45,546 nt of DNA, from positions 1 to 45,546 of the forward strand of contig CANJIL010000022.1 in NCBI GenBank assembly GCA_947474455.1, written 5' to 3'. The notes under the pieces were generated by a model. The model searched no databases, was not told where the DNA came from, and worked only from the letters and a program-made list of their open reading frames with translations. Every line of letters starts with the position of its first letter. Positions within the stretch are counted from its first letter, which is position 1. The position numbers were made by a program, and so were the translations under genes. This DNA is from Hyphomonadaceae bacterium (lineage in GTDB: Bacteria; Pseudomonadota; Alphaproteobacteria; Caulobacterales; Hyphomonadaceae). Positions 7,321-45,546 of this stretch are shown here, piece by piece.

Positions 7321-7653
7321 ATGTCCGTCGCCGCCATTTCCGATGACACCTTCGACAGCGAAGTCCTTGCTGCCGGCAAACCGGTCATCGTCGACTTCTG
7401 GGCCGAATGGTGCGGCCCCTGCAAACAGGTCTCCGCCCACTTCCAAGCCCTCGCCGACGAGCTGGGCGAGAAGGTGAAGGTCGTGAAGATCAACATCGAC
7501 GATAATCCGATGACCGCCGGCCGCTTCGGCGTGCGTGGCCTGCCCACCTTCATGATCTTTCAGGAAGGCAAGGTGTCGGCCACGCATCTTGGCGCCATGA
7601 GCAAATCGCGCATGGTCGAATGGCTCAAGGAATCCGCGCCGTCGGTCGCCTAA
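7321..7653 (+). CDS. trxA: Thioredoxin
   Basis: Small cytoplasmic thiol-disulfide reductant, 110 residues, one thioredoxin domain. Active site WCGPC with Cys31 and Cys34. The cis-proline loop is RGLPTFMIF near residue 75. An upstream in-frame start exists at 7270, but thioredoxin homology begins at 7321 (MSVAAISDDTF), with GAGGA just upstream. It follows addA by 93 bases, an arrangement common in alphaproteobacteria. A second thioredoxin lies 70 bases downstream. Confidence 0.95.
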   Translation: MSVAAISDDTFDSEVLAAGKPVIVDFWAEWCGPCKQVSAHFQALADELGEKVKVVKINIDDNPMTAGRFGVRGLPTFMIFQEGKVSATHLGAMSKSRMVEWLKESAPSVA

Positions 7654-7723: not shown

Positions 7724-8056
7724 ATGGCCCTCGCCGAAATCACTGACGACACCTTCGAAGCCGAAGTGATGCAGGCCGCTGGCCCCGTCGTCGTCGACTT
7801 CTGGGCCGAATGGTGCGGCTCGTGCAAACAGATGATGCCCGCCTTCGAACAACTCGCCGGCGAACTCGAAGGCAAGGCGCGCCTCGTGAAATTCAACGCG
7901 GATGAGAACCCCATGACCCCCGGCCGCTTCGGCGTCCGCGGCCTCCCCACCATGATGATCTTCGAGAACGGCAAACTGCTCGCGACCAAGACCGGCGCCA
8001 TGACCAAATCCAAGATCGCGGACTGGATCACACAAACCACCCCGTCGGCCGGTTGA
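7724..8056 (+). CDS. Second thioredoxin with CGSC active site
   Basis: 110-residue thioredoxin in tandem with the previous gene and similar along its whole length, with shared blocks VDFWAEWCG and GRFGVRGLPT, so probably an old duplication. The active site reads WCGSC (Cys31, Cys34): serine replaces the usual proline. In thioredoxins the residues between the cysteines tune redox potential, so this copy probably has different properties from the first. The cis-proline (RGLPTMMIF) is kept. A GGAA-containing ribosome site lies before the ATG. Confidence 0.93.
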   Translation: MALAEITDDTFEAEVMQAAGPVVVDFWAEWCGSCKQMMPAFEQLAGELEGKARLVKFNADENPMTPGRFGVRGLPTMMIFENGKLLATKTGAMTKSKIADWITQTTPSAG

Positions 8057-39502: not shown

Positions 39503-40533
39503 CTAAGCAGCCGGCGCCATGCCGCTAGCGGTGCAAACGCCAACAACAGCCTTCTTTTTGCCCCGCCGGCCCAGCTCCATCAATGTGGACCCAAGGTAAC
39601 GTATCCCCGACATCCCATAGGGCTGGCCGAACGCAACAGCCCCGCCATTGATGTTGGTGGTCTCCCACGGCGTCTCCAGCTGGGCCTGGTTGTAGAGCGT
39701 CGTCTCCGCATAGGCTTCGTGTAGTTCCCACACGTCGACATCGTCCCGGCTGAGCTCGTGGCGCTTCATGAGCTTCCAGATCGCCGGCGTGATGGCAATG
39801 CTCGTCTCCTCCTGCGCCAGCGAGGCGAGCTGCACGCCCCGGATCGGCAAGCCGCGCTTCGCCGCCAGACCTGTCCGCACACGGCCCCTCGTCCTAATCG
39901 AGAGTCACGTCCTGTTCGCGGCTCAACCCTGTCGCCCTGTCGGTGATCTTCATCACCGAGGTGAAGGGAACGCTCTCTTCAGCCAACTTTCCCGCCGCCC
40001 GCGCCGCCTCGATGCGCTGCTGGCTGTCGACGACATGCCAGGCCGGCGCCTAGCGGCTAAACTTATATTTCTTGACGACGAAATCCGCGGTCTCGTTCCT
40101 GGTTCCGCCTGACGGACGGCCGATGTTGCTGCAGCGGTGCACATAAGAAGCCATCGACCGCGATGCCGATCGGCATGGGGCTGATGCCCTCGACCCCGCC
40201 CGCGATCCCGCAGCTTATTTCGCCCGTCGCGATGCGGCTTGCGATCACCGATCGGCGCCGTGAGGCTCGACCCACAATACCGGTTCAACGTGACGCCCGG
40301 CGCATCGACCCGGCCTCAAGCGTCGCCGTGCGTCCGATATTATATCCCATCGCGCCCTTCGGCAGGCCGCAGCCAAGCATGACGTCTTCGATCTCTCTGC
40401 TCTCAACCTTCGCGCCCCACCGCCTGGTTGAGCACGTTGCCGCCAGCGGGATGCCATGTGCCTGGGTGAGCGCGCCGCGGAACGCGTTGGCCATCTCGGT
40501 CCGACAATAACCAACGAAAGCAACATGCTTCAC
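39503..40533 (-). pseudogene. Degraded thiolase (acetyl-CoA acyltransferase)
   Basis: Thiolase pieces in different frames on one strand. The start MKHVAFVGYCRTEMANAFRG and EDVMLGCGLPKGAMGYNIGR run at 40285-40533. Then NRYCGSSLTA with the catalytic Cys lies near 40260 in another frame, IATGEISCGIAGGVEGIS near 40170-40220 in a third, and the C-terminal third (VDVWELHEAYAETTLYNQAQ, NINGGAVAFGQPYGMSG) at 39503-39880. The His of the usual GHP motif reads Gln, and the last Cys motif (CxGGGxG) reads CTASGMAPAA. Several frameshifts and a lost middle make it non-functional. Possible original role: beta-oxidation. Confidence 0.82.
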
Positions 40534-40829
40534 CTGGAAGTCCTTGCTCGCCGTGTTGGTCAGACTGTCAGGAAAAGGGGTCAGCTACGCGATGTCGCGC
40601 CTTGCTGGTTTGCGCGGACGTTAGCGCCAGCCAGCGCGCGCCATCCCAGACACCGTCAAGTTTCAGCTATCAGTCTCAGTCTTTTTGATTTCTGGTCGCT
40701 ACATTTCACAAAATTGATTTCGAGAATTGAGTTTTCCATTGGTCCGGCATGAGTCGTCGATATTGTTCAGCACTTCCGTTGGGGCCGTTCGCATCTCTCC
40801 GGCGGCGACAAAATAGAGGGAGGCAATGC

Positions 40830-41876
40830 ATGCGTCCGTTATCCCGGATTTTGCTGGCGACAACGATCTTGGCGGCGCCGGCGGCGTTCGCACAGGCGGC
40901 GCCCGGCTACACAGTGCCAAAGACGGCGTGGGGTGCGCCTGACATTCAGGGCGACTGGACCAACCAATCGCTCACCACGATGCAGCGCCCGGACGGCGCC
41001 GCCAAGCTAGTTCTCTCGCCTAAAGAGGCCGAGGAACTGACATACAAGAACAACTACTCGGCTGCGGAGCGCCAGGAAGCACACGCATCGAAGGTCGACG
41101 CGAAATCCTCGGAAGAGTTTCTCTCCGACAAGAATGCTTCTCGCGCCTACAACCGGTTCTGGATGGATCCGGGAAGAGGGTATGCCCAGGTCAAAGGCGA
41201 GTACCGCTCGTCCTGGATCACCAAGCCGGACAGTGGCCGTATCCCTTATACGGAGGCCGGCATTGCCGCCAACACGCGCGGCGCCAACTTCGACGACTTC
41301 GAGATCCGTCCGTTGGCGGAGCGCTGCATCATGAGCTTCACGGGCAGCGGCGGCCCTGTGCTCGGCAACGGCATGTACAACAACACGATCCAGATCGTGC
41401 AGACGCCCGGCGCGGTGATGATGCTCGCGGAAATGATCCACGACGTTCGCGTGATCCCGATCGTCAAGTCAGCGTCTGAAGCCAAGCACACGCCCGATGC
41501 GATCCCGAAATGGGGTGGCGACTCGGTTGGCTGGTATGAAGGCGACACGCTGGTGGTCGAAACTGTCAACTCGCATCCCAGGCAGCGTTCTTACATCACC
41601 CCCAAGGGCAAGGTGACCGAGCGTTACACACGCTGGTCTGATGGCGAGATCTTCTACGAGTTCAAGGTCGAGGATCCGACGCTTTACACCGAAAATTGGG
41701 GGGGAGAGATGTCGCTCCGCATTTCCGGCGAGCCGCTCTACGAATATGCGTGCCACGAAGGCAACTACGCCCTTCCCGGAATTCTCGCTGGCGCCCGCAA
41801 GCTTGAGCGTGAAGGCCGTCCGCATCCGGAAGTGAGACCCTTCTTCGCCGGCGTCGACGAGTCCGACGGCGAATAG
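40830..41876 (+). CDS. Exported protein of unknown function
   Basis: 348 residues from ATG 40830, with GAGGGAGG 7 bases upstream (an earlier ATG at 40749 is not supported). Signal peptide MRPLSRILLATTILAAPAAF ending at AQA. The mature part begins PKTAWGAPDIQGDWTNQSL, and later shows MYNNTIQIVQTPGAVMMLAE, MIHDVRVIPI, and GDSVGWYEGDTLVVETVNSH. These blocks (pWGxPDLQGxW, YNNxxQIxQTP, WxGDTLVVxT) define a widespread periplasmic family of unknown function found mostly in soil and aquatic proteobacteria and Acidobacteria. Only two Cys are seen (ERCIMSF, EYACHEG). It has its own terminator and is probably a single-gene unit. Confidence 0.8.
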   Translation: MRPLSRILLATTILAAPAAFAQAAPGYTVPKTAWGAPDIQGDWTNQSLTTMQRPDGAAKLVLSPKEAEELTYKNNYSAAERQEAHASKVDAKSSEEFLSDKNASRAYNRFWMDPGRGYAQVKGEYRSSWITKPDSGRIPYTEAGIAANTRGANFDDFEIRPLAERCIMSFTGSGGPVLGNGMYNNTIQIVQTPGAVMMLAEMIHDVRVIPIVKSASEAKHTPDAIPKWGGDSVGWYEGDTLVVETVNSHPRQRSYITPKGKVTERYTRWSDGEIFYEFKVEDPTLYTENWGGEMSLRISGEPLYEYACHEGNYALPGILAGARKLEREGRPHPEVRPFFAGVDESDGE

Positions 41877-41970: not shown

Positions 41971-42441
41971 TCAAGTCTGAAGGCTGTAGCCACCGTTCTC
42001 GGTTATCGGGTAGCGCAACACAGCGTGGTTGGGCTCAATCTTCTGGCGTAGCCGGTACATGAGCGTTTCGAGGGTGCGCAGGGTCGCCTCGGAATCCCAC
42101 CCCCAGACAACGGCCAGAAGCTCGTCACGCAGCACAGGCTCTCCCGCGGCGCGATGCAGTTGCGGCGGGATGTCCGCTTCCATTTCCGTCAATCTTGCAA
42201 TGGCCCGCGTCGACAGGAAGCCTCGACGACGGCCGGCATTCATAGGGACCAATCTGGAGTGACACGTCTTCAGAATGTTGATGATCACGTCGGGCCTTGC
42301 CGTTTCCGCCTTCGCGAGTCATGCGGAAGCAGTTGCGGCCGGCTACATCCTGAGGGCTTCGTGCAGACTGAACTGCCGTGCGAGCGCTTCGCGCAGGTCG
42401 ATATCATCCTCGATCAGAAGGATCGTCTTCGCCGACATCAT
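41971..42441 (-). pseudogene. OmpR-family response regulator with collapsed receiver domain
   Basis: Starts like a receiver domain, MMSAKTILLIEDDIDLREAL, with the acidic pair DD, then stops at TAG (42343-42345). A fragment ALAKAETARPDVII-like (here LAKAETARPDVIINIL) follows in frame, but the phospho-acceptor block that should come next (LDxxLPDxDG to TKPF) is missing. The winged-helix output domain is nearly complete: LTEMEADIPPQLHRAAGEPV, LRDELLAVVWGWDSE, TLETLMYRLRQKIEP and ITENGGYSL. It has both a nonsense codon and an internal deletion of about 60 codons. A 105-residue DNA-binding fragment (41971-42288) could still be made. No sensor kinase is adjacent. Confidence 0.75.
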
Positions 42442-42675: not shown

Positions 42676-44646
42676 TTACTGCCCGGCCGTAGGAGCGCGA
42701 TTGGGAGCATATTTGCGTAGCTCGGCAAACACAGGCTTTGCCGCCTTGATTTCGGTGGCATCAAGAGCGCCATCCTTGTCGGCGTCGAACTCGGCGAACT
42801 TCGGCTGCATGGCGTCGTAAACGCGGCCACGCAACTCGGTCAGCTGGACCTTCCCATCGAGGTTATCGTCGAGAGCGCCAATGGCGCCGCTCGCTTTCAG
42901 TGCATCAGTCGCATCAGCTTCCGCGCCAACCTTCTCGTCGTCCCATTGATAGAACATCGAAGAGTAGTGCATTTCTTCCCATGACTGGTCGCCCCAGATC
43001 ACTTTCTCCTTGGGATTGGGGTTCGCACCGTTGCGGGTGCTGTTGTCATACCACCAGGTCGCGACGATCTTGGAGCCAGCGGCCACTTTGATCGGCTCGG
43101 CAAAGTCGTAGTAGCGCTGCCAGTTGAAGTCGTAGCGCGGCACGTTGAGAATCGTCGTCGTCTTGCCGTTCGGTTCGACCAGGTCGACCCTAGCCGCCTG
43201 CCCGCGCACGTGCGCGTGCATCATCATCGAGAACAGAGTCGCGTTTTTCGGGAACTGCAGGTAGGCGATCTCCTTGTGGAAGTCGGTGTTGGCCGGCAGC
43301 TCGATGAAATTATCAGTGACCACCGCATGGCGCATGATCTTGGTGGGCGCCTTGTCCTTCGGATAGAAGTACAAGCCGACCTTCGAGACATCCAGGCTCT
43401 CCTTGCCGTATGGCGTGTAGTGCATCTGGAAGCCAAGGTTTCCGCCTGCCGGCAGTTCGACACCCCAGCCCTCCGGAACATTCCAGTCGCCACCGCCAAC
43501 GGCGAACTCGCCATAGCTGTTTATCCACTGAGAAGCTGATGCCGGACCTTCAAGCGGTTTTTCGGCGATGTTGCCCATGAGGATATGGTGGACGCCACGA
43601 CGGTCGCCCGGGATGAAGCTCGTCGAGCGCACCCAGCGAGATTCGGTCGTGGGGTTTACGGTCGTCGGATACTGGTACTCGACCACGCCCGAGGCCGGGA
43701 TCGTGTACCCAGGAATGTCGACCACCAGATCCGGCTGCCCCTTCGGCCATTCGGGAGCAGTCGTGGCGGCTACTGCGAGTGGGTCTGCGCCGCCCGAGCG
43801 CGGAGCGCCAGCTTCGATCCAGTGAACGATCGTCTTGATCTGGTTGTTCGACAGCGAGGCGTCGTGCTTGAACTTGCCGACCGTCGGATCGGCGTGCCAT
43901 GGCGGCATCGTGTCCGTGCGGATGGCTTCGCGGATCATCGGGGCCCAGCCCTTGACCGTCGCATAGTCCTTCATCGCGAACGGGCCGATGCCGCCTTCCT
44001 GGTGGCAGGCTACGCATTTCGCCTGGAGTATCGGCGCGACGTCGCTTTCATATGAGATCTTGGCGTGCTCGGCGGTGCGCTGACGCTCCGGGAACGCGAT
44101 CGGCGTACCCGTGAATTTCACGTCCGTCATGGCAATCGGCTTGCCGGCCTTGAGATTGGCAAGCGCCGCGCCGACGCCGTCGGCCGCGCCGTGATACAGG
44201 ACCTTGAGCGTTTTCGGCTGGAGCACGAAAGCCTCACCGGCGGTGGTGATGCCCAGCTGCTCTCCGGCCAGCTGCAGGTCGTCATGCAGGACCGGGAAGC
44301 TGTAGCCTTGCGAGTTGGCCTCCGCCGCGATCTGGGCGCGCGTCACGCCAAGGGTCGAGTTCAGCATCATGAACTTGGTTTTCGGATGCGCCGCCTGGAG
44401 AGCTTCAAGCGCCTTCCCTGCCTTGCGCGACCCGGCATCACCGTTGACCTGCGACACGACGACGACTGCATCGACATCGTTCAGGCGGCGGAGGCTCTGC
44501 GCCAGACCCGTGTGGTCGACAAGGCGGAAATCGTCGGCCGCAGTTGCGACTTTCACGGTGTCGCCAACACGGTAGGCCAGCGCCGACCCTGCGATCGCCC
44601 CGGCGACGGCGAGCACGGCTACACCAGTCAAAATACGCATCCGCAT
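42676..44646 (-). CDS. Redoxin-like / cytochrome c / copper type II monooxygenase / EF-hand fusion protein, exported
   Basis: 656 residues from ATG 44646, with GGAGGAC 6 bases upstream. Domains in order: signal peptide (1-24); thioredoxin-like redoxin fold (about 30-170) with no cysteine at all, so no peroxidase site; c-type cytochrome (about 195-280) with CVACH at 211-215 and a possible Met ligand in TMPPWH (Met247); a PHM/DBM-like copper monooxygenase module (about 300-565); two EF-hand loops, DDNLDGKVQLTE (about 593-604) and DADKDGALDATE (621-632). The monooxygenase part keeps counterparts of all PHM copper ligands: His353-His354, His409, HAH (477, 479) and Met559. Such enzymes hydroxylate C-H bonds using copper and O2. 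The substrate is unknown. Confidence 0.85.
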   Translation of the reverse strand: MRMRILTGVAVLAVAGAIAGSALAYRVGDTVKVATAADDFRLVDHTGLAQSLRRLNDVDAVVVVSQVNGDAGSRKAGKALEALQAAHPKTKFMMLNSTLGVTRAQIAAEANSQGYSFPVLHDDLQLAGEQLGITTAGEAFVLQPKTLKVLYHGAADGVGAALANLKAGKPIAMTDVKFTGTPIAFPERQRTAEHAKISYESDVAPILQAKCVACHQEGGIGPFAMKDYATVKGWAPMIREAIRTDTMPPWHADPTVGKFKHDASLSNNQIKTIVHWIEAGAPRSGGADPLAVAATTAPEWPKGQPDLVVDIPGYTIPASGVVEYQYPTTVNPTTESRWVRSTSFIPGDRRGVHHILMGNIAEKPLEGPASASQWINSYGEFAVGGGDWNVPEGWGVELPAGGNLGFQMHYTPYGKESLDVSKVGLYFYPKDKAPTKIMRHAVVTDNFIELPANTDFHKEIAYLQFPKNATLFSMMMHAHVRGQAARVDLVEPNGKTTTILNVPRYDFNWQRYYDFAEPIKVAAGSKIVATWWYDNSTRNGANPNPKEKVIWGDQSWEEMHYSSMFYQWDDEKVGAEADATDALKASGAIGALDDNLDGKVQLTELRGRVYDAMQPKFAEFDADKDGALDATEIKAAKPVFAELRKYAPNRAPTAGQ

Positions 44647-44960
44647 CTCAAGTCCTCCGAGTGTATTTTTTGTTGGATCGCAACATGCCACATGATCCAC
44701 CTAGCACTAGTAGGCTCGCCCCGGACTCACGCGCATGTCATCGGAATCCCCCTATCGCCCTAACCTCACAATTCCAGCTCTAGATAAGGAATATACCGGC
44801 CTCGCGCCGAAGCGCCTTGCATTGACCCAGCGTAAGCTCGCCCGGGATGCCGCGGCGCTCTGCCGAATGTGGCCGGCGACCGTATCCGGCCGGCCGAAAA
44901 CGAAATGGCCGACCACGTATCGGCCTTGAAGTTGTAAGTCGGGGCCGTGCGGCGACAGAG
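44647..44960. other. Intergenic region without a supported gene
   Basis: 314 bases between the fusion protein gene and the small exported protein gene. A 64-codon ORF on the plus strand (44735-44929) has no recognisable features. Its end is built from repeated GGCCGG/ACCGTAT segments that form weak inverted repeats. It probably holds the promoter of the fusion gene, but I cannot place it. Confidence 0.5.
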
Positions 44961-45404
44961 CTAAGAGCCGTGCACCATCACGCTGACACGGCGCCTCTCG
45001 ACGACTTTGAGCGCTCCGGGAGCGCCAGTCAGCTTGTCGAACGTGACGACGATGTCGGCGTCCTTGGTGGCGCCCGGGACCAATTCGAAGACCTGATATC
45101 GCGCGCCGTCGGCCGCTGCATCATCCGTGGCCTTGCGAATGGCGACCATCTCGCCTTCGGACGCCCTGGCAGTCCAGGTCGCGTCGGGACTACCCGGCAG
45201 GCGGACCCGGTTCACATCGTCTTTCTTGGTGTGGAAGGTACATCCGTCGGGAGTCTCCCCCTGTTTGGCGCAAGGCGTCGCTTTGGCGCCCGGCCTCAGC
45301 GGGTTCGGAATTGCATATGCCGGGTTCGCAGAATTGGGCGTTCCTTGGGCGCTCGCGCCAGCACAACCCGCAACCAGAGCGACGATCACCAGCACCGAGC
45401 GCAT
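44961..45404 (-). CDS. Small exported protein or lipoprotein, function unknown
   Basis: 147 residues from ATG 45404 (GGAGAAA upstream); a longer start at 45437 puts charged residues before the signal and is less likely. The N-terminus MRSVLVIVALVAGCAGASAQ is a signal peptide with a possible lipobox (VAGC) or cleavage after ASA. The mature part has two Cys (ATPCAKQG and DGCTFHT), likely disulfide-bonded, then an alpha/beta-looking segment ending VVERRRVSVMVHGS. I do not recognise a family. It is upstream of the copper/haem fusion on the same strand, but 314 bases away. Confidence 0.65.
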   Translation of the reverse strand: MRSVLVIVALVAGCAGASAQGTPNSANPAYAIPNPLRPGAKATPCAKQGETPDGCTFHTKKDDVNRVRLPGSPDATWTARASEGEMVAIRKATDDAAADGARYQVFELVPGATKDADIVVTFDKLTGAPGALKVVERRRVSVMVHGS

Positions 45405-45546
45405 GTCACGTTTCTCCACAACCCACATCAGCGGCATTACGTGCCGCTAGGACGGTATCGCAACGTACCTTTTGCTCAAGCACCATCAAGACCAGGCAAC
45501 GAGGCCAAGCCCTCACCTATTCTGCGTGCGGCAATGCGATGGTGCC

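Follow-up and report, generated by a model that had tools for sequence, protein, structure and literature searches.

The stretch of DNA analysed here, contig CANJIL010000022.1 of a Hyphomonadaceae bacterium (assembly GCA_947474455.1; 45,546 nucleotides, hereafter the window), carries a reverse-strand gene whose product, P0001, joins a redoxin-like domain, a class I cytochrome c domain, a copper core of the PHM/DBH type and two EF-hand loops in one polypeptide (Table 1). PHM (peptidylglycine alpha-hydroxylating monooxygenase) and DBH (dopamine beta-hydroxylase) are classic enzymes of hormone synthesis in animals (amidated peptide hormones and noradrenaline). In P0001 the haem and copper ligands share one chain and do not vary in 139 family members, which suggests a copper oxygenase whose electron supply is part of the protein itself. 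We regard it as probable that P0001 is a haem-wired dicopper monooxygenase of the PHM/DBH type, periplasmic or located on the outer surface, in which a covalently bound c-type haem would replace ascorbate. The original prediction, read from the letters of the window, had proposed the same four-part order of redoxin, cytochrome c, copper core and EF-hands, and Pfam together with family-level profile matches bears this order out.

The gene reads without interruption from an ATG, preceded by GGAGG at a spacer of 7 bases, to its stop; an alternative GTG start at 44700, adding 18 amino acids to P0001, is less likely. From its signal-like start P0001 is apparently exported, and the alignment column of S21 holds Cys in 51 of 122 members, from which many members of the family are probably lipoproteins. 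Cys211 and Cys214 of the haem motif are the sole cysteines of P0001. Searched against Pfam, P0001 matches Cu2_monoox_C (PF03712) over residues 469-539 with 28.5 bits (cut-off 23), while Cytochrome_CBB3 (residues 205-252) and EF-hand_5 (617-634) match below their own cut-offs. Mean identity to P0001 across the family is highest in the cytochrome (0.61), followed by the copper core (0.47), the redoxin (0.41) and the EF part (0.37).

To describe conservation we used the 173 open reading frames (ORFs) with a match to the family, from which those of near full length were kept and identical cores merged, leaving 122 members. In all 122, which are thus selected by similarity and length alone, residues C211, C214, H215, M237, M247, H353, H354, H409, H477, H479 and M559 are unvaried. 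A further 17 members came from 20 loci searched with a pattern containing some of the ligands (one ORF each, three of them merging with existing members; L248 and L249 were left out as contig-cut), and the count free of pattern bias is therefore that of the 122. These eleven stay constant in the resulting 139 members, and no other Cys, His or Met of the alignment does; R481 and E558, beside the copper ligands, are likewise invariant. Because all predicted ligands are invariant in the 122 and then in the 139, their conservation is far beyond chance. The original prediction had placed the haem motif at C211, C214 and H215 and the copper ligands at H353/H354, H409, H477/H479 and M559, where all of them are found, and had named free variation of the ligands among homologues as the outcome that would speak against it; no such variation was seen.

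The haem motif CVACH (211-215) and M247, both invariant in the 139 members, correspond to the CxxCH and axial Met of a class I cytochrome c. Two methionines, M237 and M247, could be considered for the axial position. M247 is the likely haem ligand, since the distant relative L115 (described below) keeps the Met of the MPP motif and lacks M237. The haem c maturation gene CcmF is present in the window genome (G000), and P0001 is predicted to be loaded with both haem and copper.

The relation of the copper core to PHM and DBH emerges at the level of the family. With P0001 alone as the query, a PDB search to E 1 returned no PHM or DBH. Profiles were built from members thinned for redundancy (set A1, 70 members; set A2, 52 members). 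The core profile from A2 has human DBH as its only significant PDB match, at E 1.1e-4, the next match being at 0.86. In this alignment H409 falls on His333 and H477/H479 on His412/His414 of DBH at a constant offset of 39, counted in residues, and the alignment ends before the Met (DBH ligand numbering as given in excerpts of PMC4846438).

The remaining ligand can be reached through L115, a minimal protein of cytochrome c and PHM core alone (genome G154, coordinates 1432-2694), which was found in one of 78 genomes searched of its order. L115, an ORF of 421 amino acids that is 27% identical to P0001, is a probable lipoprotein. In a single-sequence search it matches PHM at E 2.8e-7 over 259 residues covering the VHH, VHY, HxH and DEMC motifs, and Pfam places both PHM domains above cut-off. 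In the family alignment its CxxCH, the Met of MPP and all six copper ligands coincide with those of P0001. Through this bridge M559 is placed as the counterpart of PHM Met314. The PHM-type ligand set of the original prediction thus holds, as L115 aligns all six ligands with PHM. The ligand groups are spaced by 55, 68 and 80 residues in P0001 as against 70, 79 and 73 in DBH, and P0001, which holds no Cys beyond 211 and 214, lacks the disulphide-bonded core of the animal enzymes. We consider it well founded that the P0001 family forms a bacterial branch of the PHM/DBH family that carries a haem.

Pfam finds no redoxin domain in P0001 alone. Among the 70 members of set A1, 51 match AhpC-TSA and 42 match Redoxin with E no higher than 0.01. 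In the PDB, the profile of the family picks out the thioredoxin-fold entries 3u5r (E 4.8e-18), 2ywi and ResA. The peroxidatic Cys is absent from this domain in P0001. Alignment column 70 holds a single Cys in 29 of 139 members and the other 110 have none, so that the earlier statement that the redoxin has lost every cysteine is right for P0001 and too broad for the family. By branch of the family tree, the Cys occurs in 7 of 9 members of P1, 6 of 8 of S, 3 of 15 of B and 13 of 19 ungrouped members, and in none of branches A, C, D, E, F1, F2 and P2. Because most branches keep the domain without the Cys, a role as a scaffold or in binding is suggested.

At the other end of the chain, the two EF loops (DxDxDG...E) carry Asp at position 1 in 137 and 136 of 139 members, the remainder being gaps, and positions 1 and 12 are kept in 135-137 of 139. 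The exceptions are L067, which stops ahead of both loops, L163, which stops after the first, and L060, which is cut by its contig end. Such loops would be compatible with calcium dependence. We also considered lanmodulin and ruled it out, as P0001 scores 22.6 bits with the lanmodulin model, below the cut-off of 135.

The family is unevenly distributed. The window genome (3.29 Mb, 103 contigs) holds two members that are 48% identical and one redoxin-only match, and the 14 other genomes of the genus hold 5-11 matches each, some of them redoxin-only or contig fragments. Within the order, the core profile has matches in 38 of 398 genomes, which fall in 9 of 59 genera, a patchy pattern. In a phylum-wide sample it matches 3 of 398 genomes, two of them from the same order; the whole-genome search sampled the window's phylum only. 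No plasmid relatives of the family were matched. The labels on 43 named contigs, mostly metagenome-assembled genomes (MAGs), include Hyphomonadaceae, Phenylobacterium, Caulobacteraceae, unclassified Alphaproteobacteria and one Cellvibrionales MAG. One homologue, L047, belongs to the strain Phenylobacterium kunshanense BUT-10. Short frames in the genus that might have been natural redoxin-less members (G014:C59, G002:C74, G009:C50 and G009:C51) all run into contig ends and were rejected as such.

A tree of the 122 full-length members resolves at least six subfamilies (A-F). Since these include members from other genera of the taxonomic family, the duplications are older than the genus, and the coexistence of such old subfamilies in one genome suggests different substrates. 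P0001 belongs to branch A, where its terminal branch of 0.43 compares with 0.02-0.29 for the other tips; the stem of the L085/L086 pair is longer, at 0.58.

We then examined the genes around family members, called with a home-made codon-usage caller instead of a standard gene finder. In branches F1 and F2 the large subunit of a molybdenum (Mo) hydroxylase of the IorB type lies directly upstream in 14 of 25 loci, from three genera. A 2Fe-2S subunit precedes IorB in 12 of these 14, the other two loci reaching a contig end (both subunits were named from one representative each, run through Pfam and NCBIfam). IorB and the family gene are separated by 158-308 bases in 13 loci and by 482 in one. Related dehydrogenases usually carry a cytochrome c subunit. 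By these heuristic calls, the fetched stretch is free of other CxxCH genes in 9 of the 14 IorB loci and in 20 of all 25 F1/F2 loci.

In another family of the order a pyrroloquinoline quinone (PQQ) dehydrogenase lies less than 3 kb away in 6 of 6 loci. The enzyme at L197 has an N-terminal cytochrome domain and shares 57-61% identity with those at the other five loci. At one of the six, G462, there are in addition IorA-IorB and a CxxCH protein that Pfam does not match. Another, G374, carries a TonB-type receptor (identified by eye) and a TPR-sulfotransferase that share 55% and 57% identity with their Cellvibrionales counterparts. This pair lies near the family gene both in the Cellvibrionales MAG (L067 820-5527) and at L197 3-4561. 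It could be a transferred unit, against which weighs that the family genes of L067 and L197 are 47% identical and not sisters in the tree. Elsewhere, ModA lies upstream in 6 of 10 branch-C loci (one of the ten, L170, leaves the branch in a larger tree). In 8 of 15 loci of branch B the family gene is preceded by an ABC-transporter ATPase gene, of the peptide type by eye, and in 5 of the 15 it is followed by a beta-propeller gene. The neighbouring dehydrogenases are probably periplasmic. Their presence would make electron delivery from haem to copper more plausible in these branches, but not for the window copy.

The same neighbourhoods can be read as an electron sink, in which dehydrogenase electrons would pass to the haem and the coppers would merely reduce O2 or H2O2, making the protein a small periplasmic oxidase or peroxide remover. 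Mo and PQQ dehydrogenases would require an electron acceptor, no further CxxCH gene was called in the interval from IorB to the family gene at the 14 branch-F loci that have IorB, and the attached domain is peroxiredoxin-like. However, all six ligands of the hydroxylase-type dicopper site are invariant, including the Met of CuM, the redoxin domain is Cys-free in 110 of 139 members, and several paralogues per genome agree better with several substrates than with a single oxidase. We consider this sink unlikely.

Several observations weigh against a dehydrogenase-fed monooxygenase. No Mo or PQQ dehydrogenase adjoins the window gene, and Cu2_monooxygen (PF01082), the N-terminal PHM domain in Pfam, was found neither in P0001 nor, with an E limit of 0.1, in any of the 52 cores of family members. 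IorB is missing from 11 F1/F2 loci, of which four lie at contig edges and the other seven are flanked by different genes; L242 and L244, members of the Phenylobacterium branch that fall inside F1 in the larger tree, also lack it. A promoter-like site, TTGAC-N16/17-(G/A)ATA(T/C)T, stands 76-104 bases upstream of branch-F genes (10 of 11 in F2, 4 of 14 in F1, 1 of 13 in A, namely L084, and 0 of 84 other genes tested; background 0.003 per 350 bases, a count that includes these sites), for example ahead of the family genes of L109, L143 and L162. A terminator-like hairpin lies 3' of IorB in two of five gaps scanned (L143 and L109), with none on the IorB strand in the gaps of L121, L110 and L162. 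The window genome itself holds a Mo hydroxylase of the branch-F type (77% identical, open frame) without a branch-F monooxygenase; where relatives carry the latter, there are transposase-like genes downstream (L194 1197-2179, contig C16 of this genome; IS630 type by eye, Pfam matches just below cut-off). It also has three Mo- and two PQQ-enzyme copies, which leaves a small chance background for nearness.

In view of the hairpin after IorB and the separate promoter-like site, a single operon of Mo hydroxylase and monooxygenase is weakened, and we speak of a neighbourhood instead. Because the window genome keeps the Mo hydroxylase alone and F loci without IorB exist, the pairing is frequent but not obligatory. 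Isolated dehydrogenase neighbours at L113, L079 and L245 may be due to chance.

The kinship with PHM raises the question whether P0001 is a bacterial enzyme that hydroxylates peptides at the alpha position and forms the first part of a PAM-like pair that would amidate or degrade peptides. PHM are the nearest solved relatives of the minimal form L115. PAL, the second half of PAM, is a beta-propeller, like the protein encoded downstream of some branch-B members, and an ABC ATPase gene lies upstream in part of that branch. Genes for DUF885, presumably peptidase-like, or M3 peptidases stand beside a few members. In the PHM chain an Arg that binds the peptide carboxylate lies two residues before the first His of HxH. 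At the corresponding column 475 the family has F in 63 members, Y in 31, Q in 21, V in 16, L in 4, T in 2 and M and H in one each (n=139), and never Arg. Searched against the PDB to E 1, the branch-B propeller retrieved designed propellers, PknD and YncE among others, with no PAL among the 44 sequences listed, and DUF885 and propeller neighbours are confined to few branches. In P0001 no fifth domain was found, and there was no Pfam propeller in the adjoining ORFs 44961-45437, 41971-42288 and 40749-41876; the contig ends 900 bases upstream, and the rest of the genome was not searched for PAL. With both the Arg and a detectable PAL partner lacking, amidation by a PAM-like pair is unsupported, and a peptide hydroxylase of either kind is in our view very unlikely.

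A metal protein without catalysis, either a copper carrier or a haem/copper redox sensor, would agree with the patchy distribution and high copy number of the family, for no member of which a substrate is known. The strictness of both copper sites and of the haem, with R481 and E558 invariant as well, seems to exceed the needs of a carrier, and we rank this as the least probable of the alternatives.

Returning to the haem-wired monooxygenase, we propose the following mechanism. A periplasmic dehydrogenase would reduce the haem, which would hand single electrons to CuH, and CuM would bind O2 and hydroxylate a small molecule, exported or imported, at a C-H bond. For the redoxin domain we propose a role without redox chemistry, as a scaffold or as a platform for the substrate; the EF-hands, with Ca2+, would stabilise the C-terminal end. 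In at least two branches the electron source would probably be the Mo hydroxylase or PQQ-haem dehydrogenase encoded nearby, and the same enzymes could also oxidise the alcohol or aldehyde product. What the analysis observes are the order of the domains, the invariant ligands, the kinship with PHM/DBH and the neighbouring genes; from these we infer export, loading with metal and haem, electron path, hydroxylation and substrate class. As a tentative and rather doubtful extension, PQQ and Mo dehydrogenases might form a chain with the monooxygenase, oxidising the hydroxylated product and returning two electrons through the haem to copper, in at least six subfamilies tuned to their substrates. If true, hydroxylation would be paid for by its own product, without ascorbate or NAD(P)H.

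The surroundings of the gene in the window are listed in Table 1. Its convergent neighbour belongs to a family that we call c10. Neither Pfam nor NCBIfam recognises this neighbour, and in the PDB nothing matches it below E 0.9. In the branch-A relatives L080, L081 and L084 a c10 gene lies downstream on the same strand, at 29 to 192 bases. The window genome contains 39 c10 matches, 26 of them near full length and many in tandem (contigs C40, C23, C18, C42 and C58), and one copy adjoins a PQQ dehydrogenase on C28. With 39 copies in one genome, nearness to the family gene is only suggestive, and we rejected c10 as an obligate partner. The Trans_reg_C frame sits between the c10 gene and the P0001 gene.

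Table 1. Features of the P0001 gene and other features of the window; residue numbers refer to P0001.
Feature	Positions	Strand	Basis
Whole gene of P0001 (redoxin, cytochrome c, PHM-type copper core, EF-hands)	42676..44646	-	Intact ORF, 656 amino acids
Putative signal peptide, residues ~1-24	44575..44646	-	Judged by eye from sequence
Degenerate AhpC/TSA-redoxin domain, residues ~30-180, 0 Cys	44107..44559	-	Family-level Pfam and PDB matches
Class I cytochrome c domain, residues ~190-300; CVACH 211-215, probable axial Met247 (MPP motif)	43747..44079	-	
PHM/DBH-type dicopper core, residues 304-569	42940..43737	-	PF03712, DBH profile match, L115 bridge, ligand invariance
Predicted ligands of CuH (H353, H354, H409) and CuM (H477, H479, M559)	Within dicopper core 42940..43737	-	
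Two EF-hand loops, residues 593-604 and 621-632	42751..42870	-	EF-hand_5 below cut-off
c10 family gene, convergent neighbour 799 bases from the P0001 gene	40869..41876 (ORF 40749-41876)	+	Family comparison
105-residue frame with OmpR-type DNA-binding domain (Trans_reg_C), without receiver domain	41971-42288	-	Pfam
Thiolase remnants: Thiolase_C piece and short piece nearer the N-terminus	39503-39880 and ~40256-40324	-	
Tandem thioredoxin-like genes, WCGPC and WCGSC	7321-7653 and 7724-8056		Named by eye

Among known systems, PHM (PDB 1opm, presumably the rat enzyme, and others) shares with P0001 the order and nature of the six copper ligands (HH, H, HxH, M), as traced through L115, and the Cu2_monoox_C domain. 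Enzymes of the PHM/DBH type have a double jelly-roll fold of two domains. PHM is a disulphide-bonded protein and lacks the same-chain haem c, redoxin and EF-hands of P0001, which is bacterial and has neither Cys in its core nor Arg before HxH. L115 shares CxxCH, the Met of MPP and the six ligands, and has no redoxin or EF-hands; its N-terminal PHM domain is still recognised by Pfam. The likeness to lanmodulin and other EF-hand proteins is weak and limited to the loops, of which P0001 has two only. Human DBH (PDB 4zel), the sole PDB entry that the core profile matches significantly, has an accessory domain that differs in order and origin, a DOMON domain without haem c. According to excerpts of PMC4846438, this extra domain aligns with the haem domain of cellobiose dehydrogenase, 14 of the 15 Cys of DBH are in disulphides, and the enzyme is ascorbate-dependent.

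We found no description of the redoxin-cytochrome c-PHM architecture in the open-access literature with search wording that was in part poor. The PHM/DBH copper core would be old and diversified in some bacteria, and the expansion within the genus, at 5-11 matches per genome, some of them partial, points to unexplored oxidation reactions. LPMO systems resemble our proposal in that a copper monooxygenase is supplied by a cytochrome or a PQQ dehydrogenase; LPMOs themselves have a single copper in a histidine brace, act on polysaccharides and have an unrelated fold. As precedents, a c-type cytochrome, CjX183, is reported to reduce bacterial LPMOs (PMC8981238) and a PQQ pyranose dehydrogenase to drive an LPMO (PMC5960967). 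For PHM itself, a 2022 paper describes a wide distribution in eukaryotes (PMC8812541). Electron transfer across the 11 Å between the coppers of PHM and DBH has long been studied, as stated in excerpts of PMC6123673 and PMC4846438. If the haem donor proposed for P0001 is real, light or stopped flow could be used to trigger electron entry into such a dicopper site and to set its timing, with no ascorbate added.

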